From assembly GCF_003144195.1 (NCBI RefSeq), contig NW_020290007.1, positions 67,556 through 131,555 on the forward strand: a stretch of DNA of 64,000 bases, written 5' to 3'. The notes under the pieces were generated by a model. It saw only the letters and a list, made by a program, of their open reading frames with translations. It did not search any database and was not told the DNA's origin. Source of the DNA: Ceraceosorus guamensis. Lineage: Eukaryota > Basidiomycota > Exobasidiomycetes > Ceraceosorales > Ceraceosoraceae. This document shows positions 251 to 55,945 of this stretch, in pieces. Positions within the stretch are counted from its first letter, which is position 1. Every line of letters begins with the position of its first letter. The position numbers were made by a program, and so were the translations under genes.

Positions 251-988
251 TGCGAAAGTGAATTCTTAGTTGATAACGCCCAATGATCGGCTTGGATGTT
301 GGGATGTGTGAAAGGAAACTAAGCTCACAGAAAGCCGCTCCCAAGGAGAGCGCGACATTGACCCCGTAAGGAAGCGTCAACAGGAGGTAGGAGACCGAGT
401 CACGAGTGTCGGTGTTACGAGAATAACACCCAGCCCCTCATTAGACTCGTGACTAACCGAGCAAGGCTTGACCTAGGGCGCCGCGACTCGCATCATCCCC
501 GGACTGGCGAGATGCGGGGTGTGCCATATGAGCCGCACGGGCATCTTCGAGAGCTCGCTCCACGGATGGCTCATCAGAACGATTATTCTCGACCTTTAGC
601 TTCAGGAGTGCAAAGCGGAGTCGCGTCGTGCGCCGCGAGTCAGCCCTTATAGGTGACATCGCGACAAGGATCATAGCTTAGCTCAAGACTAGCCAATTGG
701 AACCGTGTGGACGAGATCACGCTTGATCATGGAGCATCGTAAGCCTTGAGCACCACAGTCAAGAGTCGTGGGTGTGAAGCTCTCATCACCTGATCATCGT
801 CCTCCAGTCACGAGTCAGCGTCATCAGCGGCGCTTCTCAGCTACGCGGGGCGTGCTTCGAACGCGTGCACATGAACACAAGCATCATCAATCATGTCCTC
901 CCGCATGCTGGACGGACGACCTGCATGGCGCTGGGTGGGTCGAGCGTGGCTGCAAGCTGCAAGAGCAGTCTTAGCGAGGCGAGGCGGT

Positions 989-1021
<33 letters not shown>

Positions 1022-1407
1022 CTCGTGACTGCTGCGTGCATCTGCTCGGGTCATCGTAGCCGCACCACAACAGGCTTTCCTGCATCGGGTTGCACCTTCC
1101 CGTCATCTTTCTGACCTCACCTTCTTTGCAAGCGGCTTCTACGCACCTTCAATTGGCGCTGTTGACCGCACAAGCAAAACCGTCTGCGCTCATCCGATTT
1201 GCATAGACTCAAATACTTCGGTCGGGTGGGCTGTGCAAAGCGTTGGTGGTGCCTTTTCCAGCGTGAAGGAAGAAGCACTGATCCTCTTACCAGCAATGCA
1301 AAAGAGCGCAAGCATCGCCTGCACTCGACAGCGCACACAGCTGAGCTGATCAGCCTCGCCACGCTTTCTATACCTTTTGCCCAGTGCAAAACACTGGTGC
1401 GGCCAGC
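251..1407. other. Divergent intergenic interval with a GCAC microsatellite
   Basis: About 1.15 kb between the partial left gene and SCAP. It holds three exact copies of the 10-mer AGTCACGAGT or its complement (398-407, 806-815, 1021-1030) and a tetranucleotide GCAC tract at about 990-1022. No convincing gene was seen. Small open frames across the tract encode Thr-His-Ala-Arg repeats and are repeat artefacts. Confidence 0.6.
990..1022. repeat. (GCAC)n microsatellite
   Basis: About eight uninterrupted GCAC units run to roughly 1022, immediately followed by the 10-mer ACTCGTGACT. The tract lies about 390 bp upstream of the SCAP start codon. Confidence 0.85.
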
Positions 1408-4400
1408 ATGGCGCCATCTGCCGATGGAATGAACTCATCAGAGTCAGCACCCCGCCGGCGAGCCGACTCGCAGCTCTCGCCTCCACCAACGCCCACAATC
1501 ATGTCACTCAATCAGCAAAGCCCCGTGGACAAGGGAGAAGGACCTAGCAGACTAGCACCTCCATCGAGCCCACGAAAATCCAGCGTCAGTCGGACCGGCG
1601 CCGCCTTGCCGATCGAGGCATTCCTGCCAGGGAGTCCCGCCTCTAGCCCCACGGCATCCATGAGACTTTCGAAGAGCGGTCTGGGCTCGCTCGCCTCTCA
1701 CCATGCACTCTATCCACCGCAAGCTGCACCCCAGGAGGCATTCCCGCGTGCCAGAAGGAGGCCCAAGCGCTCATCGCAGCGCAAGGAAATGGGTCTACCT
1801 GTCATACGCAACGTCTCACGACTCTCCGCCAAGATTTCCGCTCGGGTGGAAAGATTGTTTCGCAAACATGGAGCCAATGTGTCAAGACATCCAATTCGGA
1901 CCCTACTCCTTTGTTGTCTTCTCATCACCTCACTCTTCTACCCTGCAGCTGGCATATACCTATGGTCATCTCAGGGCGGCCCAGGAATAAGCCGCAGCGA
2001 TACGTCGAGCGTGTGGCGGACACTTTCTACCCCACTGCTAGATTCTTTCGCTTCCTCTGGTCGAACTCATCACAACTCACTAAGGGATTTGCGAATGGTG
2101 TGGGATGACGCAGCAGACCTTTTTGCTCAAGATCCGCGAGACTGGATGCCCGAGCGCCATAAGGCTCGCCCACCGAAATGCGCTCGTCTGGAGCACGTCC
2201 TATTCACGACAGATGACGTTATGAGAGGAGAGGCCGGAAGGCGAGGCGTCCTGGAAGCGCCTGTTCTGAACTCCGCATACAGACTACAATCCGCCTTGGA
2301 GACACGGCTGAAGTCAGTCGGAGGGGAGAATACCCCGAGGTGTATTCAAAATCTGAGCGGGGCATGCCTCACTTTGGGGCCTCTCGACTACTGGCCTGAG
2401 GGCTCATTTCCTCTGAAGGCGGATGCCCAGGCTAGCACCGAGCTTCTCGCATCCTCAGTCAATCAGTCTGCGAGGGGTGTTCCTGTTTCTCTAGAGACTA
2501 CCTTGGCTGGTCGATCGCACATGTTCGCACGCAATCCTCGCGCAGAATTTCTTGCCTTCAGCTTTTGGCTAGAGCAGGCTCAATGCGGCAACACCACTGG
2601 CAATGAGCACGTCAATTTCCGCGCTCTCCTTTCGGACATCGCAATCGGTACGCGCATAGTGGAAAGCGAGCACCAGACAGCGAAGTCGGTGTTGGTTCGA
2701 GTGAGTGCCGGACGGTATTTTGAGAAACCTAAACCTGTTGACCGTCAGATAGCCGTGTTTACGAGCTTACCCGTCCGCTCCGCGCTCGTGTCACAGTTTG
2801 CACCGGACAAGCGCACTCCTCGAGCACATCAGATCATGCTTGCTTTGGGCTACTTGGGGTTCCTGCTCTACATTGGCCGAGGCTTAGTGCGAATGCGCAA
2901 GGTACACTCACGCTTTGGTCTGGCTTTCACCGGGTTCACCGAGCTGCTCATCAGTATGATTATGAGCGTAAGCATCTGTGCTCTTTGCGGCGTTCGTTTG
3001 ACCGCCGTGCCATGGGAAATTCTCCCCTTCGTCATCGTAGTAGTCGGATCCGAAAACATGTTCGTCCTAGCCAACGCAATCGTGTCGACCCCGATCAGTC
3101 TTTCAGTCGCCTCTCGCGTCGCCGCTGGCCTAGGCGCTGCGGGCGTGTCCATTGCGGTCACTGTGCTGAGCGACGTGCTCCTTCTCAGTGCAATCGCCAT
3201 GCTCGTGCATGTTGCGGCTGTGCGCGAATTCTGCATTTTCGCCATTTGCAGCCTGCTGGTAGACTTTGTCATGCAAATGACTTTCTTCGTGACGGTATTT
3301 AGCATCGACTTACAGCGACTGGAGCTCGCGGATCTTCTTGCTCAAGGTGTCCGCAGTGTAGAGCAGGACAGGCCGCTCGCAGCGGAACAGGAAGCTGATG
3401 CCTCCGCAGCACAAGCGACAGCCCTCTCTACACGTCGAGTGGCGCACAAAGAAGAGCAGCGCACCGGCTCATTCATCAGAATGAGCTGTCGCGCAGTATG
3501 GCGAGCTCGCACGGCTCGGACAGCCAGCTTATCGATTCTCTTGGCTGCTATGTTCGGCTTGTACCTTTACTATGGAACTGGATACCAGTCACAGGATCTG
3601 TACGGGCCTAGCCTCCCATTCGCGGACATACACGGCGTCTCAGCTTCCTTGCCCACGCGCAGCACTTTGACTAGCGCTCCCCGATCATCCAACGCCGAGA
3701 CAAGGCTGGAGCCCACTGATGGCGTCTCGGATCCCTTTGATCCGCTGGGGCATCTATCGGCCGCCGAAAGCTCCTCCTCGGATGCGGCACCATGGTGGAT
3801 GGATTCTCCCTCCGCTTCCTTCTGGATGTCTCTCAATCCAGACGGAGCGCCTCATGTTCGCGTGGCCGTCGAGCCGTGGTCGATTGTGTCTCTGCGCTCC
3901 GCCAAGGGTGCAACTCCGCAACACACGCGCAAACTGCCTTTCGCTTCTTGGGCTCTCTTCCGTCCTCGAATCCGCGCCATCATCTGGTTCCTGAAACTGT
4001 CTGTCCTCCCAATAGGAGGAACGACGGGGCTACTTTGGATCCTGCTCTTGTATCTCTTGAAGGACACCGAATTGCTAGATGCTCAGCGTGACAAAGGCAC
4101 CATCAGCGAAGAAGAAGGCGAAAGCGATGTATCCAGGTCAGGTACCAACTCCCTCAATGACGACTCGATCGATGTCTCCTTGACAGCACTCACGGGAGTT
4201 CACGCGACGGATATCATCTTGACCGATGCAGATGGCTCATACATAGCTAGCGTGGGCATCGACTCTTCCATCATTGTCTGGGACACCAAAGCGGCCAGCA
4301 GGAAGGTCCGCACACACCGCATTACTGTCCAATCTCTTGGGGGAACAGACACGACTGCCGTCACTTGCGTCGAGCTGAGTGCATCTGATGAACTGCTGGC

Positions 4401-5997
4401 TGTCGGACAACGCAGTGGCTTTGTCACGATCTACTCGCTCGCATCGCAGCAGGTAACCCATCGCTGGCAGCCAACGACTGGCCCGGTCCAATTGGTGACA
4501 TTCTCACGTAGCGCGATGCGTGAGTTGCGCGTCACATCTGCGCACCGAGATGGATCGGTCTGGACGTGGCTAGATGCTCCGGCACCTCAATGCGAGCCTT
4601 CCGTGCAGCCTCGTTTGGACACCAGCTGGACAGCTCAGCGCTTCCATCACAGTTCGTGTTACTTCGCGCTGTCTGCCCCGAATCGCCAAATTGAGGTGTA
4701 TCACATTGGTACGCAGGGTGTGGCGCCCGTCTCCACGATCCCTGGCCCAGCAAATGGTCTGGTGCGAAGCCTAACAAGCGCGGCACCTGGCCATCAGGGA
4801 TTAGCGCCCGAGTCGGGGGTCTCCTCCTTCCTTGACGACGTTGATGTGGTCCTCAGCGGCACATCCACCGGCACAGTGCAAGCCTGGCAGTTGTCCACTG
4901 GGAATCTCATTGGTCAAACCGCTCTCGCAGACGGACCGGTCCAAGATCTCTTCTGTATCTCAGACCATGAGCAACGCAACCAGCCCTACGAAACTTTCGC
5001 TGCTGTCACGCAAGCAAAGGTCACTATTTTACGTCTGAGCAATGGACAAGTGCTAGCCTCAACGATGTCAGACTTGTCGCCTGGCGCGCCCACTTCATCT
5101 GCTTCGCGTCCCTCTCCACCGAGCTCTTACCGACGGACGGCGAGCGAAACAAGTGTGTCAGGTGCAACATCTACGTCTTTGCCTCGCCCGCGCCACGGAT
5201 CTCGCCCTCCATCTGCCGGCGGCTCAGAATCCGGACATGAACTTGTCGTGGGCAGACCTCGCGCACCTAAGGGCTCCTCTGAATCAGGGTCTCAGGATCA
5301 ACCTGAGATTCCGACGCACTTCGACAATTTGACGGTTGTGATGTGCTTGCCTTGTCATCGTGGCAGTGCGGTAGTCCTTCGGACCTCGGGCGACAGCTCG
5401 CGCCTGGCTGGCGTCCGAAGACGACGCCGAAGCGAAGAAACAAGCACTGGCACCGGAGATAGTCGGGGCTCCTGGGAATACTGGGAGCTGGAATGTGCGG
5501 AGTTGTCAGAAAAAGGCTCGTCCCAGTCCTTGAAGGTCAGGACCTGTCCTATTGATTTGGAACGCCTCATTACAAGCGATGAGAGGTCACCGAGCTCGGC
5601 TGATTCGGACAGCGATGAGGATGGCTCGCGGCGGCTCACACCTCACGCTTCTCGGCGAATCGAGTCTCGCAAGATCCATGTCGCAGCTCGTGGCCCAAAC
5701 GCGCTGCTTTCTTTTGCGCGCGTCTCGCTCATCAAATCTGTAATCCCCGTGACTGGGTTCGCTGAGAGGGCATCTGACGAAGCTCTGTTGCAATCCTTGG
5801 CTGCTGTTCGCGAGCGGCGTCGATCGCTCGTCATTGCCTTTGGCAATTCTTTGGCTCGACTTTCGATCGCAAGTCCGCCCCATCCTCGGGCTGGCACATT
5901 CGGTAGCGTCTCCTCAGCAACGGCCTTCGCCATGCACCCAGCTTATGATCGACCTTCCTCCACACTCATGCGTCGTCGTCGCTCGCGCTTCGAGTGA
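1408..5997 (+). CDS. scp1: SREBP cleavage-activating protein (SCAP/Scp1), sterol sensor
   Basis: A single open exon encodes about 1,529 residues. The start is the first in-frame ATG (GCCAGCATGG). A disordered Ser/Pro-rich N-terminus precedes a membrane segment near residues 160-185, then a lumenal loop. A sterol-sensing domain spans about 477-634: five or so hydrophobic helices, with VVVGSENMFVLANAIVSTP and ending in SIDLQRLELADL, as in SCAP. Two further hydrophobic segments lie near 708-725 and 865-885. A C-terminal WD40 region begins near 930 (ASVGIDSSIIVWD). In known systems SCAP escorts the SREBP transcription factor from ER to Golgi when sterol or oxygen is low; membrane SSD plus cytosolic WD repeats is that architecture. 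The YIYF element of animal SCAP appears here as Tyr-Ile-Gly-Arg. A Patched- or HMG-CoA-reductase-type SSD protein is unlikely because of the WD repeats. Confidence 0.9.
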   Translation: MAPSADGMNSSESAPRRRADSQLSPPPTPTIMSLNQQSPVDKGEGPSRLAPPSSPRKSSVSRTGAALPIEAFLPGSPASSPTASMRLSKSGLGSLASHHALYPPQAAPQEAFPRARRRPKRSSQRKEMGLPVIRNVSRLSAKISARVERLFRKHGANVSRHPIRTLLLCCLLITSLFYPAAGIYLWSSQGGPGISRSDTSSVWRTLSTPLLDSFASSGRTHHNSLRDLRMVWDDAADLFAQDPRDWMPERHKARPPKCARLEHVLFTTDDVMRGEAGRRGVLEAPVLNSAYRLQSALETRLKSVGGENTPRCIQNLSGACLTLGPLDYWPEGSFPLKADAQASTELLASSVNQSARGVPVSLETTLAGRSHMFARNPRAEFLAFSFWLEQAQCGNTTGNEHVNFRALLSDIAIGTRIVESEHQTAKSVLVRVSAGRYFEKPKPVDRQIAVFTSLPVRSALVSQFAPDKRTPRAHQIMLALGYLGFLLYIGRGLVRMRKVHSRFGLAFTGFTELLISMIMSVSICALCGVRLTAVPWEILPFVIVVVGSENMFVLANAIVSTPISLSVASRVAAGLGAAGVSIAVTVLSDVLLLSAIAMLVHVAAVREFCIFAICSLLVDFVMQMTFFVTVFSIDLQRLELADLLAQGVRSVEQDRPLAAEQEADASAAQATALSTRRVAHKEEQRTGSFIRMSCRAVWRARTARTASLSILLAAMFGLYLYYGTGYQSQDLYGPSLPFADIHGVSASLPTRSTLTSAPRSSNAETRLEPTDGVSDPFDPLGHLSAAESSSSDAAPWWMDSPSASFWMSLNPDGAPHVRVAVEPWSIVSLRSAKGATPQHTRKLPFASWALFRPRIRAIIWFLKLSVLPIGGTTGLLWILLLYLLKDTELLDAQRDKGTISEEEGESDVSRSGTNSLNDDSIDVSLTALTGVHATDIILTDADGSYIASVGIDSSIIVWDTKAASRKVRTHRITVQSLGGTDTTAVTCVELSASDELLAVGQRSGFVTIYSLASQQVTHRWQPTTGPVQLVTFSRSAMRELRVTSAHRDGSVWTWLDAPAPQCEPSVQPRLDTSWTAQRFHHSSCYFALSAPNRQIEVYHIGTQGVAPVSTIPGPANGLVRSLTSAAPGHQGLAPESGVSSFLDDVDVVLSGTSTGTVQAWQLSTGNLIGQTALADGPVQDLFCISDHEQRNQPYETFAAVTQAKVTILRLSNGQVLASTMSDLSPGAPTSSASRPSPPSSYRRTASETSVSGATSTSLPRPRHGSRPPSAGGSESGHELVVGRPRAPKGSSESGSQDQPEIPTHFDNLTVVMCLPCHRGSAVVLRTSGDSSRLAGVRRRRRSEETSTGTGDSRGSWEYWELECAELSEKGSSQSLKVRTCPIDLERLITSDERSPSSADSDSDEDGSRRLTPHASRRIESRKIHVAARGPNALLSFARVSLIKSVIPVTGFAERASDEALLQSLAAVRERRRSLVIAFGNSLARLSIASPPHPRAGTFGSVSSATAFAMHPAYDRPSSTLMRRRRSRFE

Positions 5998-18200: not shown

Positions 18201-18883
18201 CACCGCGCCCCGAGTGAACAAAGCTCATCGATCCTTCCCGCACGAGTTGGACCCCTGCAGATTATTCGCGTCGCGTGTTGCTGACGCGACGCGCTTCAAT
18301 TTAACGCTCCGCACACGCCATCGCAGTTGAGTCTGTCTGATCATGAGGCGTGTGTCAAACGCAACGTGTTAATCTTGAATGGCCGTTTGGGAAGCTCCAT
18401 GCAGCGGACTCCCATCGACGTGCATCGCTGGTGGAGCGCCTGAGCGATCGGATTGAGCATATCATATCACACATGCGAAAGCAGGGTGATGCCTTCTGCA
18501 GTCACACACATTTGTCTGCTTGTTCGTTAGACACTTAGTTCTCCTCTGCACTCAAGAGGCTCATCAATCGTAAACAATCTTAAGACCGGCCGCGAGCTGA
18601 TGTGACTGCGAAGTGGCTCATGTCACGTGATATTGCCGCTGACCGAGCGTTGAGTGCGGCGAAGCCACGATTTATGACGTGCATACACGCTCTTCCTTAT
18701 CTTGCGGGGCTAGACTTCGCCCTGCGGTCCGATTGAAATGGTTTGCCCACATTCATCACGAGCTTTGATGGCGACGACATCCACTGTTCGCGACGCGGCA
18801 AAAGTCACACAAGGCTCTGCAAGACGAACATACCCTACAGCCTGGGGTGCGAAGGTTAGGGTGCCAAGCGTATCTCGTCCGCG
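15277..18883. other. Large divergent gene-free interval (3.6 kb), PHD protein / urease
   Basis: No gene with supporting motifs was found. Minor repeats are visible: three copies of CCCATG around 16609-16630 and three of ACGGT near 16566-16580. A 94-codon open frame from 18046 encodes a Cys-containing peptide (FCPCCMGIFYPAHEQC) but has no other support. The urease-proximal end carries a GATA-type site at 18696-18701. Long 5' UTRs or non-coding transcripts could occupy part of the interval. Confidence 0.5.
18696..18701 (-). promoter_or_regulatory. Candidate GATA-factor site upstream of urease
   Basis: CTTATC on the plus strand is GATAAG on the minus strand, preceded by A, which fits the HGATAR consensus of fungal AreA-type nitrogen regulators. 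It lies 183 bp upstream of the urease ATG. Urease is commonly nitrogen-regulated in fungi. A single 6-mer is weak evidence. Confidence 0.3.
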
Positions 18884-21755
18884 ATGCACCTGCTGCCCAG
18901 AGAGCGGGACAAGGTCCTTTTGCATCAAGTTGGCGCGCTGGCTCAAAAACGCCTGGCGAGGGGGGTGAAGCTGAATCAGACCGAAGCCACAGCACTGATC
19001 GCGACTGTATTGCAAGAGAGGATACGAGATGGCACACACAGCGTCGCAGAGCTGATGCAGCATGGCAAGACACTCTTGGGTCGCGACCACGTGCTGCCCG
19101 GAGTACCCGAATTGCTGCACGAGGTCATGGTGGAGGGATGCTTCCGCGACGGCACATTCCTCGTCACGGTCCACGACCCCATCTGTACGCCGACCGGCTC
19201 GCTCGCCGACGCCCTCTTTGGCAGCTTCTTGCCGGTTCCCAAGCAAGCGTTATTCCAAGAATATGCTCCACCCCATCACGTGCCTGGTGCTTTGGTCGTC
19301 CTCGCAGGCGCAGCTCCCATCGTGCTCTGTCCAGGCAGAGACCGCATCTCTGTCCGAGTGACAAACACTGGAGACAGGCCAATCCAAGTCGGCTCGCATT
19401 ATCTCTTCTCGGAGACCAACCGGGCCCTGAGATTCCCGCGTCTCAGAGCGGTTGGGTATCGCTTAGACATCGCTGCCGGCACAGCCGTGCGCTTTGAACC
19501 GGGAGATGTGCGCACGGTAGGCCTCGTCAGCGTCGCAGGCAGTCGTAAGCTCAGTGGGGGATGTGGCATCCTAAACGGTGATCTCTCTGCTGTTGCCGAC
19601 GATATTCGGCGTGATCCCGAGGGCTTGCGCGCTCGCATCACAAGCTTGGGCTTTCTCGACGCGCCTGCTGAAGAGTACGCAGCTCTCGAAAGTCAGCCTC
19701 CGCCCCGCCCGATGCAGCTCTCGCGTGCCGCTTACGCAGCTTTGTATGGACCAACAAAGGGCGATCGAGTCAAGCTTGGGGATAGTCCATTGTGGATCGA
19801 GGTCGAACGAGACATGTGCAGCTATGGCGACGAGTGCAAATTTGGAGGTGGCAAGGTGCTGCGCGACGGGATGGGCCAGGCCTCGGCTCGGAAAGACGGC
19901 GAAACGTTGGATCTAGTCATCATCAATGCGCTCATCGTCGACTGGTGGGGCGTCGTCAAGGCAGATGTCGGAATCAGGGAAGGTGTCATCGTTGGCATCG
20001 GCAAAGCGGGCAACCCAGATATCATGGACAACGTGACGGAAGGAATGACTGTAGGGAGCACTACAGAGGTGATGGCTGCTGAGAATCTCATTCTTACAGC
20101 TGGTGCCATCGATGCGCACGTTCACTACATTTGTCCGCAGCTCATCGAAGAAGCGCTGGCGTCCGGTATCACCACTCTGATTGGTGGTGGCACTGGCCCG
20201 ACCTCGGGAAGTTCCGCCACCACTTGTACTCCGGGCAGAGATCAGCTTCGCGCGATGCTCCGAGCCACTGACCAAATGTGCATGAACTTTGCGTTCACTG
20301 GCAAAGGCAACGACAGTCATCCAGACGGTCTGAGAGATCAAATACGCGCCGGATGCGCAGGTCTCAAGCTGCACGAGGATTGGGGCACAACTCCGTCCAC
20401 AATCGACTCTTGCTTGACCGTTTGTGATGAGCTGGATGTGCAATGCAACATACACACCGACACGCTCAATGAGTCGTCCTACGTCGAAGACACTATCGCG
20501 GCCTTTAAAAAGCGGGTCATACACACCTACCACTCAGAAGGTGCTGGTGGAGGGCACGCTCCCGACATCATTCGAGTGTGCGGAGAATCTAACGTGCTTC
20601 CTTCCAGCACGAATCCAACCAGACCTTACGCCTCTAATACGCTTGATGAGCATCTCGACATGCTCATGGTATGCCATCACCTGAGTCGAAACATCGCCGA
20701 AGATGTTGCATTTGCGGACAGTCGAATTCGTGCCGAGACCGTGGCAGCGGAAGACTGCCTGCAGGACTCTGGAGCGATCTCGATCATCTCTTCGGACTCT
20801 CAGGCGATGGGAAGAATAGGCGAAGTGGTGTCACGCACTTGGCGCACGGCTGCGAAGATGCGAGAAATGACTGGTCCGCTCAAGGACATGACGCAAGGGC
20901 AGGATCCGCCAGATGACGACGGCCGCGACAATCAACGTGTTAAGCGCTACGTGTCCAAGTATACCATCAACCCGTGAGTCATGGTGCTGATGCTACTTTC
21001 AACCATGTCTGATGCGCTGATGCCCCTTGCTCTGCTTTGTCCTGCCGGTCGATAAGTGCCATCGTGCACGGCATGTCGCATCTCGTAGGCTCTGTCGAGG
21101 TCGGCAAAGTTGCCGATTTGGTATTATATCGGCCCGAGAACTTCGGCACAAAGCCCGAGATCGTACTCAAGGGCGGGCAGATTGCGTGGGCGCAGATGGG
21201 AGGTGAGTTACCATGAAGTTTCTTTACGCTCGCCTCGAGTGTCAGGCTGACGAACATCGTGGACCCAAACAGATGCCAACGCCAGCATTCCAACGGTCCA
21301 GCCGATCTTCGGAAGACCCATGTTTGGTTGGCATGCAGGGCAACACAATTCGATTGTATTTGTCAGCAAAGCATCCATCGACGAAGGTGAGGACTTGACG
21401 ACTTGCTCCGTGTTTCACTGATGACGTTCGATGGCCTGACCAAGTCCGTCTTGTGTGTGTGGCTAGGCAACATAGCATCCTACGATCTCAAGAAACGCGC
21501 CGAGGCGGTTCGAAATTGTCGCAACATCAGCAAAAGGGACATGAAGTGGAATGATGCGCTGCCCAGGCTTACGGTGGACCCAGAGACGTGAGTACGGGGA
21601 AGTGCGAAGAGCGGTAGCGATCCTGCGGGGCATCGTCCGTAACCGACGTTTTCCTTGCTTTTTTCTTCAGTTACGATGTGACAGCGGACGGAGAACTCTG
21701 CACAATCGCGGCATCGACCTCGTTGCCCATGACACAAGCCCAGCATCTCTTCTGA
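18884..21755 (+). CDS. URE1: Urease (nickel-dependent, single-chain fungal type)
   Basis: Exons 18884-20973, 21057-21202, 21273-21386, 21467-21587 and 21671-21755 give 851 residues, normal for fungal and plant ureases in which gamma, beta and alpha subunits are fused. The start [17 protein letters not shown] matches the family N-terminus. All visible active-site elements are intact: [10 protein letters not shown], the carbamylated-lysine motif [32 protein letters not shown], the flap sequence [14 protein letters not shown], and an alpha-subunit C-terminus ending TQAQHLF. The enzyme hydrolyses urea to ammonia and carbamate in the cytosol and needs Ni and accessory proteins, which are not in this window. 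It is convergent with Mss51, with only 186 bp between the stops. Confidence 0.96.
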
Positions 21756-21941
21756 GCGGCTCAATTATGCTGGTGAAGCTTGCCGCACACCATCCCTCTC
21801 TACGGCCGTCGGACTCAACGAAGGCGCACGAAATGTTTCCCCTCTCAATAGCCACAGACGCATCTGCTTCTCATTGCGCGCAAGTGTCTCATTAGCTGCG
21901 AGACCCGCAATTACGACGAAACGAACAGTGGAATACGGAGC

Positions 21942-25885: not shown

Positions 25886-26381
25886 CGTGGCTCAAACGAT
25901 GCGGCTGTGCACGGATTGTATACTCCGGGTCGTCAGTGTGAGCAGCTCGAACTTGTGCGACCAGCTCGAGAGGCGATTTGCTGTGAATCGCGGATGATGG
26001 TCGACTTTGGGGTATGGAAGCGCAATAATGTCCTTGTCGGGGCTTGCCATCAGCAATCGTGAATCGTGAATGTGAAGTAGTGAATCGTCGTCGTGGATTG
26101 TGGGAAGCAAGACGTCCGTGCGGCGCTTGCGCGGCAGGCGCGGTTACCCCCGCGCGTTCGAAGTTGTCACGTGAACACAGCGGGCAATGGTCGATCTTTG
26201 ATGCGCTCCGACGTTGAGCGAGTCAGGAGAGTCAGTTCGGATGAGTCTTGACGAGTCTGCTTCGCGATCAAGTTTGGTAGTCTTGAGTATCATCGACCGG
26301 TTCATGTGCGTAGCTACGACGCCTACCTCTTCAACCGGATCGCAAGTCTGACGAAACTGCTACGCAAAGGCTCTTACGACG
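25886..26381. other. Divergent promoter, Pre5 / Atp23
   Basis: About 500 bp. It carries a run of related repeats, AATCGTGAATCGTGAAT at 26054-26070 followed by a further GAATCGTCG. No TATA box was evident. Confidence 0.5.
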
Positions 26382-29871: not shown

Positions 29872-32800
29872 TTTCGCTCTGCTCGTCGAATGTGTACCTT
29901 CCGCTTGCTCCTTGGATTTGTATGCTCCGATTCCCTGGAGCACAAAGCTGCAATTTTCTGGTACGCGCGCTTCGCTTTGCTTGCTTGCTTGCTGCGAGAG
30001 GACTGCGCCGCTGCTGTTGTGGGTGTGCACCAGCCGGCGAAACCGTGTCGATCGATCGGGCGGAGTTCGGTGGGATTCTACGCGCTGCGAAGTCGAGTCT
30101 GGGCGTTGGCAACGGCTATATTCACAATTGCGGCGAGTCCATTCGCCGATGGAGTGGAATGGAGCTGGCAAAGTCTCCCGACGTTGGCAGAGGAGGTTGT
30201 GGAGAGCGTGGAGGAGTGCGGAGATGGGTGGTCGATTGTGGTGAATTGGACCAAATTATGAAGACTCGGCGGGGTCAAATGGAGGAATTATGCCCTGTCG
30301 GGTAGCGTCGACCGAGCGAGCGATCGAGTTGGACCGATCTGCTGTCGGGCGAGCGGGCTGCGTAACAGTTGTGAGTATTCTGCTGCACTTGACTGCAGAA
30401 GAGAGGCAGCTTTTTATGCGGCCTTATGAACCGCATCCAGTCAGTCAGTCGATCGTGAGTCCTTTGGTGACGCTCCGCTCCGCTCCTTCTTTCCTCCCCA
30501 CCCAACTCCGGCACAATGTGCAGCCGAGGACCGTCATGGGAGGAATTGGGCACAGGCAAAGTGGCCCTGCCTTGCCTTTTCGCAGCAGGCCAACACAACA
30601 ACCCTTCTCCCAAATCGTAGTTGCCAAGCACTAGCGTGGATGCTCGGTGCGCCTCTCACACTCGTGACTTCACTTCTTGCTCCCTCCGTGTTGCCCTTTC
30701 ACCCGTTGTGGGTTGCACATTCATCGTAACCGGACTCCTTCACAAGCCACGCGGGGACGGAGCTCTCACAAAGCAATCCAGAATCGAGAAAGTGAATCTG
30801 AATGGAAGACTCGGATGCGCCACCGGCGACTTGCACTTGACGGGTGCGCGGGTGTGCCCCCGTTATACTCCTCCTCCTGTGGCGGGCATGTTCGCACGTA
30901 CGTTCACTGCATTACTTGCCGCGCTGTGGCATGATTGCGACGCACAGCTATAGGATTATTGCTGCTGCAAGTGTGAGAGCCCCGCGCACCAGGACACGCA
31001 CGGCATAATCGCTCCAAAAGCTGCCACCCTTGGCGTTTTCGGAAACTTACTGACGGGAACCGGTGAAGGGTATGTAGGGCGCAGTCGACTGCCGCAAGCC
31101 CGGCACGGCTGGTCACGAGCGATTCCTAATCGTCACGGCTCGTCGTACACGTCTTGCACGAAGGACAAGCGCTCGTGTCTAAGGACGACTCAGAGCTGGG
31201 CAAAGTGACTCAAATTTTCGTAAGTGTGACTTGCGATGCAGTCAGTCAGTGGTACGCGCGCCTGATGGATGCTGTCTCGCTCCGGAGAAACCAAGCGATC
31301 AGAGAGAAGCAGCAGGCGAGTCAAATACTCTCGCGGTCAAGCAGAAGAAATAGCATAACCATCAGCTGACCCTTTGTACGCGGGAAGGCGAGGGTTTAGA
31401 GAGACGCCTATTCGCACCGTCGAGCATCAAATGCGCTCTCGCTCTGCTGCTTTTCTGCGGCTGGACGTTCTCTCCACAGCATGCAAAGGACATTTTAATC
31501 GCGCTTTTACTGAAATTCACCGAGCCCTTAATTCACGCGTCGCGGGGCAGGCAATGCAAGGCTCAAGACCTTTCGTTATGATGAGTATCAATCTGGACCG
31601 CAAAAAGCCACACGGAGTGCATGATTCACGATTGTACCGCCGCTGCTAGGTATCGAGTGAGTCTGTCTAGCCATGTGTGGATATGATCGATCTGAGCATC
31701 GGCATTAAAGGTCATTCTGGGCAAGAAGAGCGAAAGGTCGAGGTCCCTCTGCGGGGGCAGGCACGCATCGACCCCCCTCCTCTGCGTCACGCTGACTCTT
31801 GACTCGACGTCCTGACCGCCGCGTATCCGCACACGCCCTGCGTGCGTGGCTACCGTACACATACAGTCACGATCGAGTACGCGTCAGCTTGCCTCGGTAG
31901 ATCTTTGCTGGACCGGAAAGCCGTAAAAGCCCTGCATGTCATGGTGCAGCTGCGTGCATGCACGCTCTCTGCTTCTGACAGCTTTTGACTGATGCACTCA
32001 AAGACTCAGAGTGACTCAAGATCCATCACGACTGCTGCTGCGCTGCATGCATGCATGCATGCAATGAGCATCCAGTCGCAGAGCCCCGCGGGCATTTTAC
32101 CGAATTCGCCGAATTGGCCGGCTGCGCGCGCATGTGTGCCGTACTCACTGCACAGTTAATTCTTGCTGGTGCTCCATGTTGTTGTGCTGGGCTTGGTTGG
32201 CGGTGCTTGGCTTGGAATCTTATTGCAAGCGGGGAACGCGTATGGATGATGGGGTCCTCGCTCGATCGCGATATGCGAGCCGAGCAGCGTGAAGCAAAAG
32301 TTGAACTCGCGACTCGTCATTCACATTCACATTGTCCCCGAAAGGCCATTTTCTCCATCTTGTATAGCAGCATATATGCATGCGTCTCGATCTGCATGCT
32401 AGCTGCTGCATGGCGACAGCTGTCGTTGATTGACGTGAATCAAGGTCACGTTCTGACTCGGTTTCATACCAATCAAACCCCCCAAATTGTGGCGTCGACA
32501 AGGAGTTGCAAGTCGGCGACGCTAATCTGCAGCAGAATTAACATGATGGCGTGCGCGACAAGGCAACTAATTAAAAGCGTAACACGCCTTGGCTCGGGCG
32601 TTGCATGGGCACAAGCAACTTGATGAGACTCGAGAGCAAATCAAGCTCCACTGACACTCATGACTAGCTCTGACTCGCGACGACAACGATCGACGTGAGA
32701 CTCGATGGCTTGACGCGGCGATTTCAGTCACGAGTGGGCTCATTCTGAGTTCTACCGTAGGTCTAGCTCCCACACCCGCCCCGCTCCTCCAGCCTGGCCC

Positions 32801-33709
32801 ACGTCTTCAGATCGAGTTTGAGTGAGAGGCACAACTCGAGGGCCTCCCTCTGCAAGTCATCGGCAAGAGCTCCGGTGCCTTGACCAAGTCAAGCAGACGC
32901 CAGACTTGCGTCATACGGTGGCTGATGGACGTCGATGTGGAAGCCGCAACCCTGCCTCCCCTTTGTCCGCCATTCCGCTGGCCCTTTAGGGCGCGAGGCG
33001 AGAAGAGAAGAAGAGCGCATGCACCACACTCGCCGTGTTCGGCGGCAGAAGGCCGCAGACACGTGTAGCATGCTCATCAGTCATGAGTGGTACTTTCAAA
33101 TCTTAAAAGTGCAAATCAAACGAATGGATAAAGTAGCGTCAGCGAGAGGAAGAGGACTGTTGCAGCTCACGTGACTTGGGATGGTCCAACACTCTTGACT
33201 GCAAGAGGCTTATTGCAATAATACAACAACATCTCCTTGAAATCTTCACCTTGCATGCCTTCAATATGATCTGCTCTATAGCATTCACTCATCCTGCCTT
33301 CGTGCAGAGTCGCAGATCAAGATCCAAAGCTCTCGGAACACGATGCATGTGTCTGTGATACTGCCAGCCGAAGGCTCACAGACATGGCCAAGCCAAGGTG
33401 GTGCGGGAGGCGAGCAGCCGAGTCAACGTCATGACAGGCGGGCGAGAAGATGCAGGTCGACCGTTGTCCGTTGGATGAGAGTCAGGGCCGCCAAAGACGC
33501 ACGATGCTGGCTTCATCGCATCTTGGCACACGACAACACCGGCAATCTTGCAGGTGCCCATCTGTCGAGATGTGTGCAAATACGCAACACCACTTGGACA
33601 GCCAACGTGCATGTAGATGAGCATCCAAACTTGTGCTCATCCGAGCAGCCTGTCAAGTGAACCTGTCAGCCAGCTAACATTTCGAAGGGGTGCAGCGAGA
33701 AGAATCGTA
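29872..33709. other. Large divergent gene-free interval (3.8 kb)
   Basis: No gene with family support was found. Visible simple repeats include GCTTGCTTGCTTGC near 29980, CAGT repeats near 30437-30450 and 31239-31250, and GCATGCATGCATGCATGC near 32044-32062. Two exact copies of the 10-mer occur (30660-30669 and 32726-32735), plus several variants. A 190-codon frame at 32051-32623 begins in the ATGC repeat and looks fortuitous. Confidence 0.5.
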
Positions 33710-34722
33710 ATGAGCGCATCCTTTCTCTCGTCCTACTCTGCACCGCGACCATTGCTTGAAGAAGTGACGACCCCACAACATCACGACTTGACGAATCCTA
33801 CGAATCCAGACTGCGAAGCTTTGCTCTCGCGCTCGCGCTCGCACTGCGCAGCTCCGGCTCCACCAACCTTGGCGCATACATCTCACACCCTCACCACTTT
33901 GCACTGTCGGGGAGGCTCACTTCCACAAAGCAGCAGCATGGCCAATCTCAGTCTCACGACTCTGGTGGAGCTCGCGCTGCTCACAGATGCGACCATGGCG
34001 ATCGGCGTTCGCGTGCCATCTCTGAGCACACACCCGGTCGAAGAACAGCTGGAAATCTTGCGGCAGATCCACGTTCCGCCTCGAGAATCCTCAAGGCAAC
34101 ACCTCTCCTTCTCTCGCAGAGCGTCTTTGTCGGGTCAAGAGGTGCGTGCAAGCAGCGTGACACTGCTCCGAAGACACAATTCAGTCCGAAGCCCTTGCTG
34201 ATTTGACCCATGATGATGTGTCGCTGCTTGATTCCTCAGTTCGATCGCGAAACTTGGCAGCCGTTTCATCTCGAAAGAGTGCCCGAGATGGATGAAGACG
34301 TAGAGACGACTGTCAAGCCAGGAGCTCGAAAGCTCTACGAAGAATGCGACCTCGACGAGAGCAAATGCACCCCGTGTGGCGCTTCTTCCATCAAGCACAA
34401 GCTTAGACTGGGCACTCGACGCTTGCTCGTGAGCAAAGCGGATGTGCAAAAGGTGCTTCAAAGGCTGCGACTCGAAGTCGGTACGTTGGGGCAACGATGC
34501 GTGCGGAACAAGTCGACCTCAGTGGGCGGCGTGCAAGAGGACACGATTCGAGCACGAGAAGCTACGTTGGCTGCTATCGAGCGTGCTCATCAGAGCATCG
34601 CGCCATTCGTACTTCCGGGATCCATGAGCTCGAGCAGCATCAGCAACGTCTTTGAACAGCTTAGACGCGATCTGGATGGTCAAGCACCTGCTCAGTTGCC
34701 CAGGTCCCAACACGGCATCTGA
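33710..34722 (+). CDS. Unrecognised protein, two exons
   Basis: Exons 33710-34141 and 34240-34722 are joined in phase 0 across a 98-nt GTGCGT...CAG intron and encode 304 residues. I do not recognise a family. The first half is Ser/Pro/His-rich with a hydrophobic stretch (LSLTTLVELALLTDATMAIGV) and a helical segment (VEEQLEILRQIHVPP). The second half has FDRETWQPFHLERVPEMDED, a CTPCGASS pair of cysteines, and a predicted helical region (SKADVQKVLQRLRLEVG; EATLAAIERAHQSIAPF). It is convergent with the flavoprotein gene. An intron consistent with its neighbours and amphipathic helices favour a real gene. An upstream ATG in the same frame at 33617 is possible. Confidence 0.55.
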
Positions 34723-35165
34723 GAGCGCTTCGGCGTCAGCGGCTCTTTTCGTAAAACATTGCTGACCAAGTCTTCACTTCTGAGTAAGTCTGTCAATGAA
34801 GAGGCTGCGGAAGTGGGGTGACAGTGCACGAGTGGAATGCATCCCTTACATTGTGCGCCTCCAGCCTTCTATTCAGGACCTGCGATCGAAATCCTACAAA
34901 TATCGCAAAGGCTGGATCACCGAGTCCCAGGACCACCCATACGCAGACATGCCTGTCACTACCTACCTCCATGCCTCGACGGTCTTCTTCTTTTGAAACC
35001 CATGTAGAGATGCTCGACTCTGCACTCTCTGCGCTGCATCACGACTCTTTGTAGAAATGCCATTTTGCAACGGGTAACAAAGACTTTAGCGTGATGCCAA
35101 CGCCTGACGAAACGGGCGTGGCACCGACTCTGTTATGCTCTCGTGGTGCAAATTTAGCCAGGCAA
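34723..35165. other. Convergent 3' interval
   Basis: About 440 bp between two stops. Nothing recognisable. Confidence 0.45.
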
Positions 35166-38131
35166 CTAGACTTCGACTGGCAGCGTCTCGAAGCCGAAGT
35201 GAGTGAATCCAAGGTGTGAGGCGTGATCACTTCCGCGCGACTCCGTGCCCACGTCCGCTTTGCTGCCAATCGTGCTCTTTCTGTCTTGGGATGGGAGGAC
35301 AGTGCCGGACAATAATGCTGGGCTCGGTGGAATGCCGAGAGAGAGCTCTCCAAGACGCACAGCAACCCTCTCCGCTGCTTCTCGCATACCGCCAAGATTT
35401 CCAGCTGCAGGTCCGATCTGTAGCCCAGCAAGCGCACCGACGACTTTCAGGGATGAGGTGTTGGGAGAGTGTGCGAATGTTTGTGAGGATGGACGAGGAG
35501 AGAAGGTGCAAGATTTCGGGGGATTCGCTCGCACTCACAGAACAGTGGCACTTCTCTGCCCCACTGCAAGCTGTCCGTCAGACACGGCAAGCCTCCCGCT
35601 TCGGGCAAAGGATTCGCCAGCGCAAATGCCTTGGCAAATGGTAGAGCAGAGAAGCCCTGCTGACTTCCCGTCGCACAGACCATAAACGCGGCTCGTACGC
35701 GGTGCATTTGCACCTCTGGCTCTTTGTGAAGCTCGCAAGCGTCGCACTTCTTGCGAGGAAGTGGCATTTTGGTGCAGAGCTTGAGATCCCACTGACCATA
35801 TTGCTTGTCATAGACTGCATCGTCCACCTTAGTGTGCGTGCGAATCGTCACCTTGCCTTGCTGCTCCAGAGCGCGCAATCGAGCCGCCCAGGGTGGTGTT
35901 ATCGAGCCTCCTTGACGCGCACATCGCACCATGGCCAACCGTGTAGCTGCATCTTCCTCTTGAAAGAAACGCATCTGGATAAGCAGCGCGACGATCAGAA
36001 AATATGACCCATCTTCCGCTGTAGCAGAGGATGCCCTCCTCTTACTTTTGCAAGATTCGCATATCTGCCCATCCATTCCAAGCCAATGTCAAAAGGCTTG
36101 ACTGGGAGCGCAGGCGGTGTCATGATCAGTGTGCAGATCGCGCAGTAATCTGCGTACACCGAAGCGTTTTACGAACCCTTCATGTGGCCCCTCATGATGA
36201 CCTCGACGTGGTCAAAGCCGCGACGAAGCGCGAGATCGGCCGTTTGTCTGGGGAAGTATGCAGCATCGGGGCAGCGTGACATGAGCTTGCTGCGCTGTCG
36301 ACTCGATTTCAGACCGAACGGAAGGTCTTGGACTCACGCAGTGGTCAGCCCGCCCCCGACGATCACGCAAGTCTTGCCTCGCACTTTGGAGGCTGCAGGA
36401 GGGAATTGGTACGAGGGGTTGAAGATGGCACTTGAATGACACCAGCCATCTCCAGCGCATGACGGCGACTGGGGGCGCGTGATGAATTGCGGTAGAGCTG
36501 GACCACCAGCCATTCCCAATGCGCAGACGACTGGTCGCGAAACCCATCAGTGAGGGTCAGCTTGCCTGAAAAATGTCAAAGCACGAAGCCCCCCTCGCAT
36601 TTGCTCACCAGCTTTAGAGCCCAATTGAGAGCCGTCTTCAGTCTTGATGCAAAATCCTTGCATGTGGTCCCAGCCCTCGACGTGGAGTTCTCCCCAATGC
36701 AGCTCGGACACCTCACCTTTAGCCAAGGTGATTGGTGATGATGCATTCGTTTGAGCTTTAGAAGCTGAATCAACGCCGCCATGAGGGTGGCCATTGTCGC
36801 CTTTCCAAACTTTGTGCGCGTCGCGCCATTCCCCATCCAGGCCATATCTTTCGACCACCTCCTGCTGCACGAAGCTGCAAGAGAGTTGGGCAGCAATGTC
36901 AGTAGTCGCAGCAATGCTCGCTTCATGCTGCCATGTCTGCACTCACTCTCGAAAGAGCTTGGTGGATGGCACGTGATAGTCCTTGCGGTCGCGCTCGTTG
37001 ACTGCTGGACCGATGTCGCGCAGCATCCTAGCATAGCCCGCTGTCGCATCTATGCCTTGTGCACTCGTCGCGTCGATGGCAGCAGGCTGACCTGCAGAAT
37101 GAGCTTTGCCTTGCCTCTTTTGCCTGCTCTTGATGCGATGCTTCGAAATCTCCTTGCCCACACAATTTGCAATCTCTCTCAAGCTGTAGCCTGGCGGAGC
37201 GACGTGCCGATGATGATGCTCGGCGCGCAAGCTCTCTGCAGTCTCTCCGTCTTGCCTTCTGCGCTGCCTTCGTTCGGCACGAGAGGGTTTTGTCAGGCTG
37301 CCGGATGCGTTGTGGTCGGCGTCGGGGCATGACGCGCATCCGTGTCTCTCGGCAAAGGCCAGCAAAGCATCCAAATCTGCTGGTGCAGGGTGAAAAAATA
37401 GCGGCGATCGAAGGTGTTCGAGCTGCAATGCTCGGAAAGCGTTGTCCCACTGCTTCATCCAACCGCCCAGGCGATCGATGACGAGAATGCGCATCAAACC
37501 TTGACACTCGCAATCTCGATCATCATCACCATCCGTATCAGCAGCAGCAGCAGCTGCTGCTGCTGCCCTGCTTCCGTAGCCCGACTTGTCGTCTGCGGTG
37601 CTGATCACTCGCTCAGAGCCACGGGCGCGCGTCTTGATGGTGCGTGCGCGCGAGATGTTACCAGCTTTGCCAGACTTTTTGAGCCAATGCAAGTGGCGAT
37701 GCTCGTCTTCCGTATAGATGGCGCTGTGATGGGGGAGGCGAAGAGCGGGTCAGTTGGAGCGACGAGGGACCTTGGGCTCCGTGGCACCGGCCCTACCCAC
37801 GCTGGACGTTCTTCCAGCAACCTTGCGACTAGCGCTAGCGACGCGGGTCCCTGTGTGGTTGAAAGCGTGAGCATCGTACGGGAAGGCAGTGCTGAAAGGG
37901 CAAGATGCCTGATTGCTTACTCACTGCGCCGATGACGATGAGATCGAAGAATGCATGCTCAGGAAGCGTCATTGGAGAAGCGGTGGCTGGGTCGCGCCTG
38001 CAAAGAGGTACTGAGCTCGAGGCTAAGGGAAACGAGGGAGGTGGAGTCGAGGCAGAAGGCTCAAGGCCGTCGTCTTCAGACACAGCGATGCTCAACTCTG
38101 TCGGGGTGAGTCGATGAGGGCGAAGCGTCAT
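35166..38131 (-). CDS. FAD/NAD(P)-binding flavoprotein, SidA-like monooxygenase fold
   Basis: Nine exons: 37925-38131, 37801-37850, 36947-37723, 36609-36874, 36338-36530, 36177-36247, 36046-36101, 35539-35974 and 35166-35443, giving 777 residues in one frame. The FAD Rossmann motif DLIVIGAGPASLALVARLLEE is at about 62-82. Then comes VIDRLGGWMKQWDNAFRALQ with HLRSPLFFHP, a second dinucleotide motif CVIVGGGLTTAQTADLALRRG near 485, MRGHMKVKPFDIGLEWMGRY, and a C-terminal GALAGLQIGPAAGNLGGM. This order matches fungal flavoproteins related to ornithine/lysine N-monooxygenases. The substrate is unknown, and no siderophore synthetase lies nearby. A poly-Ala tract (about 9 residues) and an Arg/Lys-rich linker interrupt the FAD half. 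One donor is GTTCGT, weaker than the others. Confidence 0.82.
37539..37565. repeat. (CAG)5(CTG)4 inverted triplet repeat
   Basis: Five CAG units (37539-37553) run directly into four CTG units (37554-37565), forming a nearly perfect self-complementary block. Read on the minus strand it encodes the poly-Ala run of the flavoprotein. Confidence 0.85.
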
Positions 38132-44299: not shown

Positions 44300-45555
44300 T
44301 GTCGTGTCTCGCTGCGCATCCGAGAGATCTCTGTTCTGTGCAGGCTCGATGCTCCAGAGTCTGAATTTGCGCCTCGCTTGGAGACGATTTTGTGTTACGA
44401 GTCACGAGTGCTTGCTGTCGGACGCAGGAGACGAGTGGAGGTGTCCTGAGGCTAGACAAGGATAGCTGGAGTGCAGAGCGGGCATGCAAGACAACTTGTC
44501 AAAACGGCAACCTCCTTGCGGATCGGATGGCGGGCATGAGCTTGGTGCGTGGTGATGCAAGCTGCAAAGCGGCAGTTTTGATATGATCGTCAGTCTGTGT
44601 ATCTGTAGTAGTAATAGTCACGAGTGTCACTCTCGAATCAGTGCATGCATGGGATGTGGGATGCAAGCTGCTCGCAATTCGACTCATGCAAGAGTTGAGT
44701 CTCTAGTCTTTCGCTCGTCTCGCGCGACTCCGCAAAGGTGATGATGAGATTCGATGGTAAATTGTGAAATGCGCGTGTAGACACCGCGGTACCACTGATG
44801 CTTGTGCCGCGATCCATGCAACTACTCATGGCTCGCGACGCGCCCGGGCGCGAGATCTCGGCCCGCGGTGCCTATTCGTGAGTCGCTGTCGAATGAACGC
44901 ATCACATGCTCGTGATTCACGCATTCAGATTGATGCACATAGGTCTTGATGCGTGATCCGTATTCACATTCTTGTTTCAGATCACTTAAACGTGCACCGT
45001 TCGGAACCCTCGCAATTCGAGCCGCAACCCCCCAGCTTTCGAGTTCAGTTTGTGAGACGGCAAGCCCAACTATATTCATCCACGAATTATAAGAGGTGCT
45101 GGCGAGATTTACTGATGGGAAGCCCCACGCGAGACGGACGCGTAGATATATATATATATATATACGGGCGCTTGATCAAGGCGCAGCTATAGGAGAGCCA
45201 GTCACGCGCGCAGATTGGTCAGCCTGCATGAGCGGCGCCCGCTTGGGGGGGCTTTGCGCGCAATCGCGTGCGCCAGCAGACAAGAGGGTCCGCGATGAAA
45301 TATGGGGCGCTTATTGTCTTATTGTAGCAGATCGCACACGCGTAACGCTGATCCGCAATGCATTCATTCGAGTCGTGAAAATCGTCAGGAAGCGCGTTAC
45401 GTACATGCAGAGTCGAACGTCAAGTGTGTGACCAGCAGCGCGCGATGTCCGTCGAAACAGAGCAACAGGGCACGCACCACGCCTCCAAGTCGCTGCTAAG
45501 ACACCGAGCGCCAAAATACCATCCTACCAATCAAAAGTGTTGCAATGGAGACGGC
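44300..45555. other. Intergenic interval, Zn2Cys6 gene / sedolisin
   Basis: About 1.25 kb. It includes two exact AGTCACGAGT copies (44400-44409, 44616-44625), related CGTGA elements near 44877-44920, and a TA dinucleotide tract at about 45146-45166. No gene was recognised. Confidence 0.55.
45146..45166. repeat. (TA)n tract
   Basis: About ten TA units (GATATATATA...TACGG) in an intergenic stretch 3' of the sedolisin gene. Shorter TA runs occur near 39330, 40764 and 63189. Confidence 0.85.
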
Positions 45556-54094: not shown

Positions 54095-54324
54095 GACGAG
54101 GTACAGCAGCGAGCCTACGAGCCGAGGACGCTGAGAGCGCAACTCATCTGCGTGTCCGGCGAAGCTCGAGGGGAGGAGGTTAGGCAAGCTAGGCTGATGT
54201 ACGTGTCAGTCAAGCCAGTCCGAGTCCAGCATTTGGTGATGAGAGAAGATGACAAGCCTGGTGTTGTTGTGTCGCACTTGGAACTTAGCCGCGTGGCCGG
54301 GGATGCTGTAAGTCAAGAGTATAC

Positions 54325-54400
54325 AGTCACGAGTGTGAGTCATGAGTCTTGAAGTCACGATCGAGACCAACACTCGTGACTCACGACTCACACTCACGGA
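54325..54400. repeat. Cluster of AGTCACGAGT/ACTCGTGACT elements
   Basis: Exact copies sit at 54325-54334 (AGTCACGAGT) and 54372-54381 (ACTCGTGACT). Between and after them are diverged copies (GTGAGTCATGAGTC, AGTCACGAT, TCACGACTCA). The block alternates orientation and lies just upstream of the RecQ gene. Confidence 0.75.
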
Positions 54401-55119
54401 TGCGACGCGCTCAGCAAGCTTCACGCGCATAGCATCAGCAGCCTACATGCAGCATCCATGCACACGCAACGCAGACAACACGCGCCACGCGAATGAGGCC
54501 GCCGCGCGCGCTTGCTTGCGTGCGTGGCAGCATACGAGACATCGCATCAGAGAGAGATTTCCAAACGTGAAACACAAGCTTGTTGTCCGTCGAGAAGATT
54601 CTGCTGAAAGCTGAGCGTCCCACCGCTCGCAGTCAGAGAGTTAACACCGAGTCGGGTGGTCATGCGGTTACCACTCACCCAGCAGCCGTCGCGGTGCTCT
54701 TCTCTGTGCTTCATGAGGAGGCACTCATCGTGGCTCACCTCTCCAAAGGGTTTTTTCTACTGCGCCCGCCTCTCTATACGTGTGCATTTGACTTGCGATT
54801 GTGACTCTGACTACGATTTGTTGCATGCGAGATGGGAATGTCCTCATTCGTGGTCCCTTCCTCGAGCCCGGCCGAACTTATGGCCGAATCGGGTCGAGCG
54901 ATCCAGACCACTGTCAAAGGCGAAGTTCCGCAGGAAGTCTCGCGACGATGATCGAGTCGTTTTAAGAGTAGCACGAGCATATTCGCGGTCCATGAAGTTT
55001 TCCATCGCCTTCAAGTTGGATGAAGTGTGCCTTGCAGGTGAATGCGACATTCGTGATTTACATTACAGGTGACACGGCCGAAGAGCGAACCCCGAAAGAC
55101 TGATGATGATGAGAGGACC

Positions 55120-55145
55120 GCGACTCGCGACTCGCGACTCGCGAC
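55120..55145. repeat. Tandem CGACTCG array
   Basis: Three to four head-to-tail copies of a 7-mer (CGACTCG) run without spacers, a C-to-G/T variant of the ACTCGTGACT element found elsewhere in the intergenic DNA. Confidence 0.7.
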
Positions 55146-55945
55146 CACTGGCTGATGATGGAACTCGTGACTTTCGACTCTTACTTGACTCAGGACCGGC
55201 GACGATGAGCAAGCCTTCGATGGATGCTATCTGCAGCGGCTATTTAATTATGCCCATCCATGCATGCACTTTCAGGCCGAGTCAAGATTCAGGCAGGCGA
55301 CTGGGCGCGTTTTAAAAGTGGTCCAATGATGCATGTATGTATAACATCTGCGTGCACAATCTTGAATCAAGAATCTTGAAAAATCTAAATAATGATGCAA
55401 GCCCCTCTGACTCAAGAATCTTAATTCCGAATGCGCCTGTCGCGCTCCGGGCCGGACCATTTAATCAAGGGTGCAAACGGCTTCAGCAGTCGTGAGTCTT
55501 GAGTGATTATTCGCAGCAGTTGACTCGGTGTTAAGCACCCGGCTCGCCAGCAGCAATCGTATGCCATGCACTCGCGACTCCCAACTCCGTTTCACGGCGG
55601 AGCTGAACTTGATTCGTGATCCAGCAACTGACACACATTCAGATGGACACACTCTCACTGGTGACTACTCATCATGAATATATAGCGGGGCAATCGCAGA
55701 CCATGACTAGTCGTGTGGGCAGGTCATCCGTATGCGAGCAATCGGAAGGGATGGCGCCACATCCGGCCGTTACAGTCCGGGGATGAGCCCTCGCGGTTCA
55801 TCAGCAGAGAGTCGCGAGTGTAGAGGCTACCTACCTGCAGCACAGACCACAGATCTGGGCTCCAGCTGCAGCAGCGTTGTGTGGCTCTTGTATGTAGCGC
55901 CCACGGGTCGCAAGCCTCATCAAGATTGACTATGTGTGTTGTGCG

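Follow-up and report, generated by a model that had tools for sequence, protein, structure and literature searches.

Excision of Tc1/mariner-type transposons leaves a footprint in which a short target duplication surrounds a few constant end-nucleotides, and IS5/ISL2-type and PIF/Harbinger elements make 3-bp target duplications (e.g., ANT or TWA, ANT being the ISL2 target). HIP1 of cyanobacteria is a true palindrome that is common in coding DNA, and the yeast general regulatory factors Reb1 and Abf1 recognize one sequence each, a common and sharp promoter motif before many genes. We compared with these systems an exact 10-mer, AGTCACGAGT/ACTCGTGACT, that recurs in a 64,000-nucleotide stretch of the Ceraceosorus guamensis genome (C12:67556-131555, hereafter the window; the assembly holds 23.8 Mb in 199 contigs). 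The 10-mer is one form of a wider family of words that obey the rule A-X-T-C-N-N-G-A-X-T: the two X positions carry an identical base, and NN is mostly GT, AC, AA, TT or GC. In the parts examined, the sites mostly sit in front of genes. We tentatively read them as scars that a process of insertion (or insertion and excision), sequence-specific and aimed at promoters, has left behind; to this reading we give nearly even chances.

The family shares with Tc1/mariner footprints a duplication on both sides of a fixed remnant, and re-use of the target would nest the copies. It differs in that its target is ANT and theirs TA, in that its remnants are nearly confined to a short list, and in that its roughly 15,000 copies come without an excess of inverted-repeat elements in the 304 kb used for noncoding statistics (C1:1-200000 plus C12:47556-151555) and without a detected DDE_3 or DDE_Tnp_4 transposase in this genome. 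IS5/ISL2 and PIF/Harbinger elements are similar in their 3-bp staggered duplication at ANT, but DDE_Tnp_4 was not found in the genome and inverted repeats were not in excess between equal ANT trinucleotides in the same 304 kb. As with HIP1, one short word is present in thousands of exact copies; unlike HIP1, the family lies on the promoter side, with a direct repeat in X, and perfect palindromes are scarce (416 AATCNNGATT versus 6,920 AATCNNGAAT). Reb1 and Abf1 sites resemble the family as a common promoter motif upstream of many genes, but the family demands X=X, uses two spacings and forms overlapping arrays. The Cib1 element of Ustilago maydis, T/CGACGTGGAAG or TGACGTGG in an excerpt of its paper (PMC6490947), is likewise a smut promoter motif with a CGTG core, but in that excerpt it is asymmetric, has another sequence and lacks the AXT duplication.

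An earlier note on this DNA had listed 11 exact copies, placed them outside exons and introns and put the chance level at about 0.1. Every coordinate was exact in the window (six AGTCACGAGT and five ACTCGTGACT), and 100 dinucleotide shuffles of the window gave a mean of 0.14 copies and a maximum of 2, with none of the 100 reaching 11. None of the 11 copies touched coding sequence called by a hidden Markov model trained on long frames of this genome, which has no intron model. Genome-wide, instead of a count no higher than a null, we obtained a total of 2,222 (1,083 + 1,139) versus 60 (34 + 26) for the reversed, uncomplemented word. Instead of many coding copies, we found 2 that touched coding sequence among the 200 four-base-core family members of the 304 kb. 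The 10-mer was 43-fold above a fourth-order Markov model (41 observed and 0.95 expected) in 166 kb of noncoding DNA, the same DNA on which the model was trained.

To rank words, we used a 264-kb sample (C1:1-200000 plus the window), which also served for the Markov test, the table of X combinations, the 5′-side density and the ANT background. With simple repeats of period 4 or less set aside, the most over-represented noncoding 10-mers were ACTCGTGACT, AATCGTGAAT, AATCACGAAT and ACTCACGACT; ACTCAAGACT, AATCAAGAAT, AATCTTGAAT and ACTCGCGACT ranked lower, alongside AATCAG-repeat words. Among the 16 combinations of the two X bases, strand-counts were 84, 114, 114 and 84 for the four equal ones and stayed between 6 and 18 for the other twelve. 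Altering a fixed base at one or both places of a dyad pair brought the count to 17 or below. For the middle bases, AC/GT ranked first, AA/TT next and then GC, with AT rare and the others near absent.

The same rule held genome-wide, with 8,285 places for ACTCNNGACT (reversed control, 1,038) and 6,920 for AATCNNGAAT (reversed control, 50), compared with 928 for the mixed, X-unequal (A..C) form AATCNNGACT and 416 for the palindromic, X-unequal (A..T) form AATCNNGATT. These four counts admit any middle bases and so contain some background, the size of which is given by the mixed form (928). The family totals about 15,000 sites. X was equal at 83 of the first 100 of 9,748 ANTCACGANT places and at 122 of 142 CACG/CGTG sites in the 304 kb. 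Of members with a four-base core, the window holds 45, all outside called coding sequence (X-unequal controls, 7; reversed controls, 0). Another 7 members have a CAG/CTG core, and two of these touch coding calls. The diverged relatives named in the earlier note are members, or pieces, of this family.

We count a compositional or assembly artefact as refuted by these controls. It would have in its favour only that the sequence is generally repetitive and CAG-rich; against it stand the 43-fold Markov excess and the low reversed controls (60 versus 2,222, 50 versus 6,920, 3 versus 963 for the overlapping pairs described below, and 0 versus 45 in the window), although the control is weaker for ACTCNNGACT (1,038 versus 8,285).

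The word had been described as close to a palindrome, which does not hold in the usual sense of the term: true palindromes are rare, and the flanking AXT is a direct repeat. The rarity of palindromic forms likewise rules out a true palindrome or hairpin. Apart from X and the two middle bases, the word is dyad-symmetric, and the allowed middle pairs occur in both complements. Dyad symmetry holds for the outer A..T, T..A and C..G pairs and for the flanks, where C is preferred before the word and G after it; the X positions are equal instead. The observation was sound and understated: over-representation, noncoding placement, shortness and occurrence in both orientations all stand, and the near-palindromic 10-mer is better read as a promoter-side family with a duplication-like rule.

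Position relative to genes was assessed in the intervals between two called genes, which contain 196 of the 200 four-base sites of the 304 kb; N-containing intervals and gene calls shorter than 300 bp were removed beforehand. Divergent intervals held 89 of the 200 sites (1.49 per kb; 18 of 19 intervals occupied), tandem intervals 105 (1.06 per kb; 25 of 45 occupied) and convergent intervals 2 (0.07 per kb; 1 of 19 occupied). The 41 unequal-X control sites were distributed as 15 divergent, 20 tandem and 4 convergent (0.25, 0.20 and 0.15 per kb). The family is therefore one of promoter-side DNA, and between the ends of two genes it does not rise above background. The earlier statement that the copies lie only between genes was right as to noncoding DNA but incomplete: the family is promoter-side, and its convergent density does not exceed that of the control. 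On the 5′ side of genes, the density was spread across 2 kb, with a maximum at 400-600 bp that was not sharp.

The exact copies in the window, with other members and clusters, are as follows.
398..407, minus strand: exact 10-mer AGTCACGAGT; the SCAP-like gene 1345-5997(+) lies downstream
445..454, plus strand: exact 10-mer ACTCGTGACT
757..766, minus strand: family member AGTCAAGAGT with core CAAG
806..815, minus strand: exact 10-mer AGTCACGAGT
1021..1030, plus strand: exact 10-mer ACTCGTGACT, adjoining a (CGCA)n run
26055..26071, plus strand: two overlapping members with one AAT in common, AATCGTGAATCGTGAAT
30660..30669, plus strand: exact 10-mer ACTCGTGACT
32726..32735, minus strand: exact 10-mer AGTCACGAGT
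44400..44409, minus strand: exact 10-mer AGTCACGAGT
44616..44625, minus strand: exact 10-mer AGTCACGAGT
54165..56412, no strand assigned: divergent interval that holds 15 members with a four-base core and one with a CTG core, flanked by RecQ-helicase-like coding sequence (-) and a pyridine-nucleotide oxidoreductase gene (+)
54311..54388, no strand assigned: cluster in which AGT members with CAAG, CACG and CATG cores face an inverted ACT pair with CGTG and CACG cores, holding the exact copies at 54325 and 54372
55123..55139, plus strand: tandem pair ACTCGCGACTCGCGACT
55163..55172, plus strand: exact 10-mer ACTCGTGACT
55358..55374, plus strand: tandem pair AATCTTGAATCAAGAAT with X equal and cores differing
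55488..55504, minus strand: tandem pair AGTCGTGAGTCTTGAGT with X equal and cores differing

The divergent interval at 54165-56412 is the richest in the window. The copies at 30660 and 32726 sit in a 7.4-kb stretch (29504-36951) in which the intron-free model called no gene. Two inverted pairs of exact copies lie 47 bp apart (398/445 and 54325/54372); close pairs in general show no fixed spacing, which removes that candidate. An inverted repeat at 54331-54395 has 18-nt arms that are 94% complementary and 29 nt apart, and consists of family members in both orientations. Directly downstream of the first cluster of copies, the gene at 1345-5997(+) has matches to a SCAP-type sterol-sensing domain and WD40-like matches.

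Members also overlap through a common AXT, with 963 ACTCNNGACTCNNGACT places genome-wide versus 3 for the controls. In the 304 kb, 24 overlapping pairs had two four-base cores, and their cores differed in 16 and were the same in 8, X being common by construction; copying of a whole 7-mer thus fails to explain most pairs. Some arrays mix core lengths (e.g., AATCAAGAATCACGTGAAT), and 150 of 173 clusters are lone 10-mers. At distances of 14-300 bp, neighbours showed no concordance of class, orientation or core. Two separate regulons, one for class A and one for class C, were rejected on this absence of concordance at 14-300 bp; at longer range there was mild concordance. Class-C pairs within 90 bp had the G-form before the C-form in 9 cases and the reverse order in 3, too few for use.

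Equality of X extends to other inserts. Around CACGTG, X was equal at 7 sites and unequal at 0 in the 304 kb; among the first 50 of 323 ANTCACGTGANT sites genome-wide, 38 had equal X, 8 were mixed and 4 were AGT..ACT, with no ATT..AAT or AAT..ATT. CAG/CTG inserts showed 46 equal versus 32 unequal sites in the 304 kb, and five-base C..G inserts 25 equal sites versus 8.3 expected from unequal ones. The words TACCGGTA and ACCGGTAC were enriched as well in noncoding DNA of C1:1-200000 plus the window (8 versus 0.63 and 13 versus 2.25 expected), and are perhaps a second promoter motif.

If the sites are scars, a staggered cut would fall at a trinucleotide ANT, slightly more often where C precedes and G follows it, and fill-in would duplicate the 3-bp AXT around a short remnant, usually CACG/CGTG, CAAG/CTTG or CGCG, sometimes CACGTG and possibly CAG/CTG. 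Later events inside an existing AXT copy would then give tandem arrays in which X is constant and the remnant variable, and some scars may since have been co-opted as regulatory sites. We infer the cut, the fill-in and the inserting enzyme from the rule, the numbers, the promoter bias and the arrays described above. As in a transposon footprint, the target stands directly repeated on either side of a remnant, presumably through duplication, and dyad symmetry outside X is what target-site duplication predicts. The composition of X at the 200 four-base sites (A.245, C.285, G.275, T.195) matches the noncoding ANT background (A.240, C.264, G.264, T.232). At the 127 isolated sites, the first outward flank was enriched in G (0.457 versus 0.307), not in the C expected from a decayed tandem array. 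The six fixed positions contributed evenly to the excess of one-mismatch words (12-19 apiece, with a bootstrap sd of 6-8), and this excess comprised 55.5 transitions (sd 10) and 38.5 transversions (sd 14), a pattern compatible with neutral, unconstrained decay.

In place of scars, the sites may be where a very common promoter factor binds, or two related ones (one for ACTCNNGACT and one for AATCNNGAAT). Such a factor might be a general regulatory factor with a promoter-opening role, to which the overlapping 7-bp arrays would offer cooperative binding. Long-term persistence and confinement to promoters would be expected of binding sites, which makes such a factor a real possibility, albeit one that we would not bet on. 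Promoter-side enrichment is as expected of transcription-factor sites, both in the divergent and tandem densities relative to the convergent one and the control and in the near absence from coding sequence. The middle bases are limited to a restricted set, and about 15,000 sites would amount to roughly two per gene if we assume about 7,000 genes. Positions in binding sites act largely independently, and their edges are usually weaker; here, positions 2 and 9 are coupled, and mismatches are even across positions. An additive binding model cannot give equality 7 bp apart for every base, and the equality recurs at 9 bp around CACGTG. A dimer on a dyad site reads complementary bases at the two X positions or ignores them, whereas the X bases of this family are identical, whichever of the four they are and at two insert lengths, so copying is the simple source. 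Also awkward for a factor are two classes without concordance inside promoters (14-300 bp) and a 5′-side density without a sharp peak. Heat-shock (TTCNNGAA), GCN4/AP-1 (TGANTCA) and basic helix-loop-helix readings misfit both the core set and the X=X rule. No binding site known to us requires the bases at dyad-related positions to be equal, and a 3-bp ANT duplication gives the rule at once; we therefore favour scars over a promoter factor. A third reading, remnants of 7-bp tandem arrays that lengthen and shorten by slippage as minisatellites do and of which the 10-mer would be the shortest stage still visible, is improbable. The 963 overlapping places, the pairs with the same core (8 of 24) and the homogeneous arrays fit it: CGCGACT is repeated 3.9 times at 55119 in the window. 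However, such arrays are few, and tandem copies of one unit are not the usual state of a family in which single sites make up 150 of 173 clusters, isolated sites show no remains of an array beside them and cores differ in 16 of 24 pairs. Slippage should also hit any triplet, but with these cores equal non-ANT triplets numbered 398 versus 341.5 expected, and equal ANT triplets 400 versus about 29. A homogeneous ACTCACG run at C3:473800-473844 indicates that slippage acts on the family too.

Several observations weigh against scars. Restriction to promoters is at least equally natural for binding sites, and concordance of class was raised at 14-1000 bp (170/304 versus 153.5, p 0.038) and at 300-2000 bp (164/275 versus 139.2, p 0.004), each among 15 tests; the slight rise at the longer range would suit a factor. 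At every spacing, ANT equality stayed inside the spread of the remaining triplets once canonical sites had been removed; a broad spectrum of imprecise footprints was thus not seen and was rejected, the five-base C..G inserts excepted. The remnants are nearly a discrete list. Equal-X CACGTG sites strongly favoured the A/T class (34 versus 4 among the first 50 of 323), which scars leave unexplained, and CAG/CTG is partly simple repeat (11 AATCAG-AATCAG overlaps in the 304 kb). Six-frame searches of the genome, in which only best candidates were considered, found no DDE_Tnp_4 or DDE_3 transposase; Plavaka and Transposase_21 were not found either, but their controls were silent too, and the search was confined to these four families. 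Inverted-repeat elements between equal ANT were not in excess (5 equal versus 27 unequal in 304 kb of the 23.8 Mb), which removes from the candidates a mobile element with inverted repeats and equal ANT in that sample. As for related empty sites within the genome, the 304 kb contained no self-similar DNA at E 1e-10.

The family presumably also resembles intergenic sequence of U. maydis. Primers in excerpts of three U. maydis papers contain AATCGTGAAT, ATTCGTGATT and ACTCAAGACT (PMC2219887, PMC7358432 and PMC2631132), and two of them extend as constant-X arrays (AAT-CGTG-AAT-CGTGG-AAT and ACT-CAAG-ACT-CACAG-ACT). According to these excerpts, two primers come from flanking DNA downstream of the gene that the respective paper names, and the third was for reverse-transcription PCR. 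Also to be set against scars, these words suggest an old, lasting family, which fits function, and with it a promoter factor, better. The reversed forms of one set of family words had no match in openly licensed PubMed Central (PMC) papers, although reversed words are rarer in this genome too. Sequence and topic searches of the same collection found no description of the family in the titles and abstract beginnings of the matches listed, and the word is not described in excerpts of the Ros1 (PMC4917244) and Cib1 (PMC6490947) chromatin immunoprecipitation sequencing papers or of a gene-clustering review (PMC10218983).

As binding sites, these words would rank with the most abundant promoter elements that the fungus has, under a recognition rule known to us from no other factor; as scars, they would record large-scale rewriting of promoters by an unseen process. 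A bolder proposal, which we consider unlikely, is that smut fungi have, or recently had, an enzyme system, hitherto unrecognised, that cuts promoter ANT with a 3-nt stagger and leaves CNNG between AXT copies, without a transposon. Thousands of near-identical micro-insertions before most genes would then be a new source of eukaryotic promoter sequence.

Scans of the window for RNA families and tRNAs gave nothing relevant to the 10-mer. They did return an Rfam 5_ureB_sRNA match at 19859-20153 (-) with 76.5 bits, antisense to the urease gene (18860-20977). Conserved urease coding sequence alone may account for such a match in a fungus.

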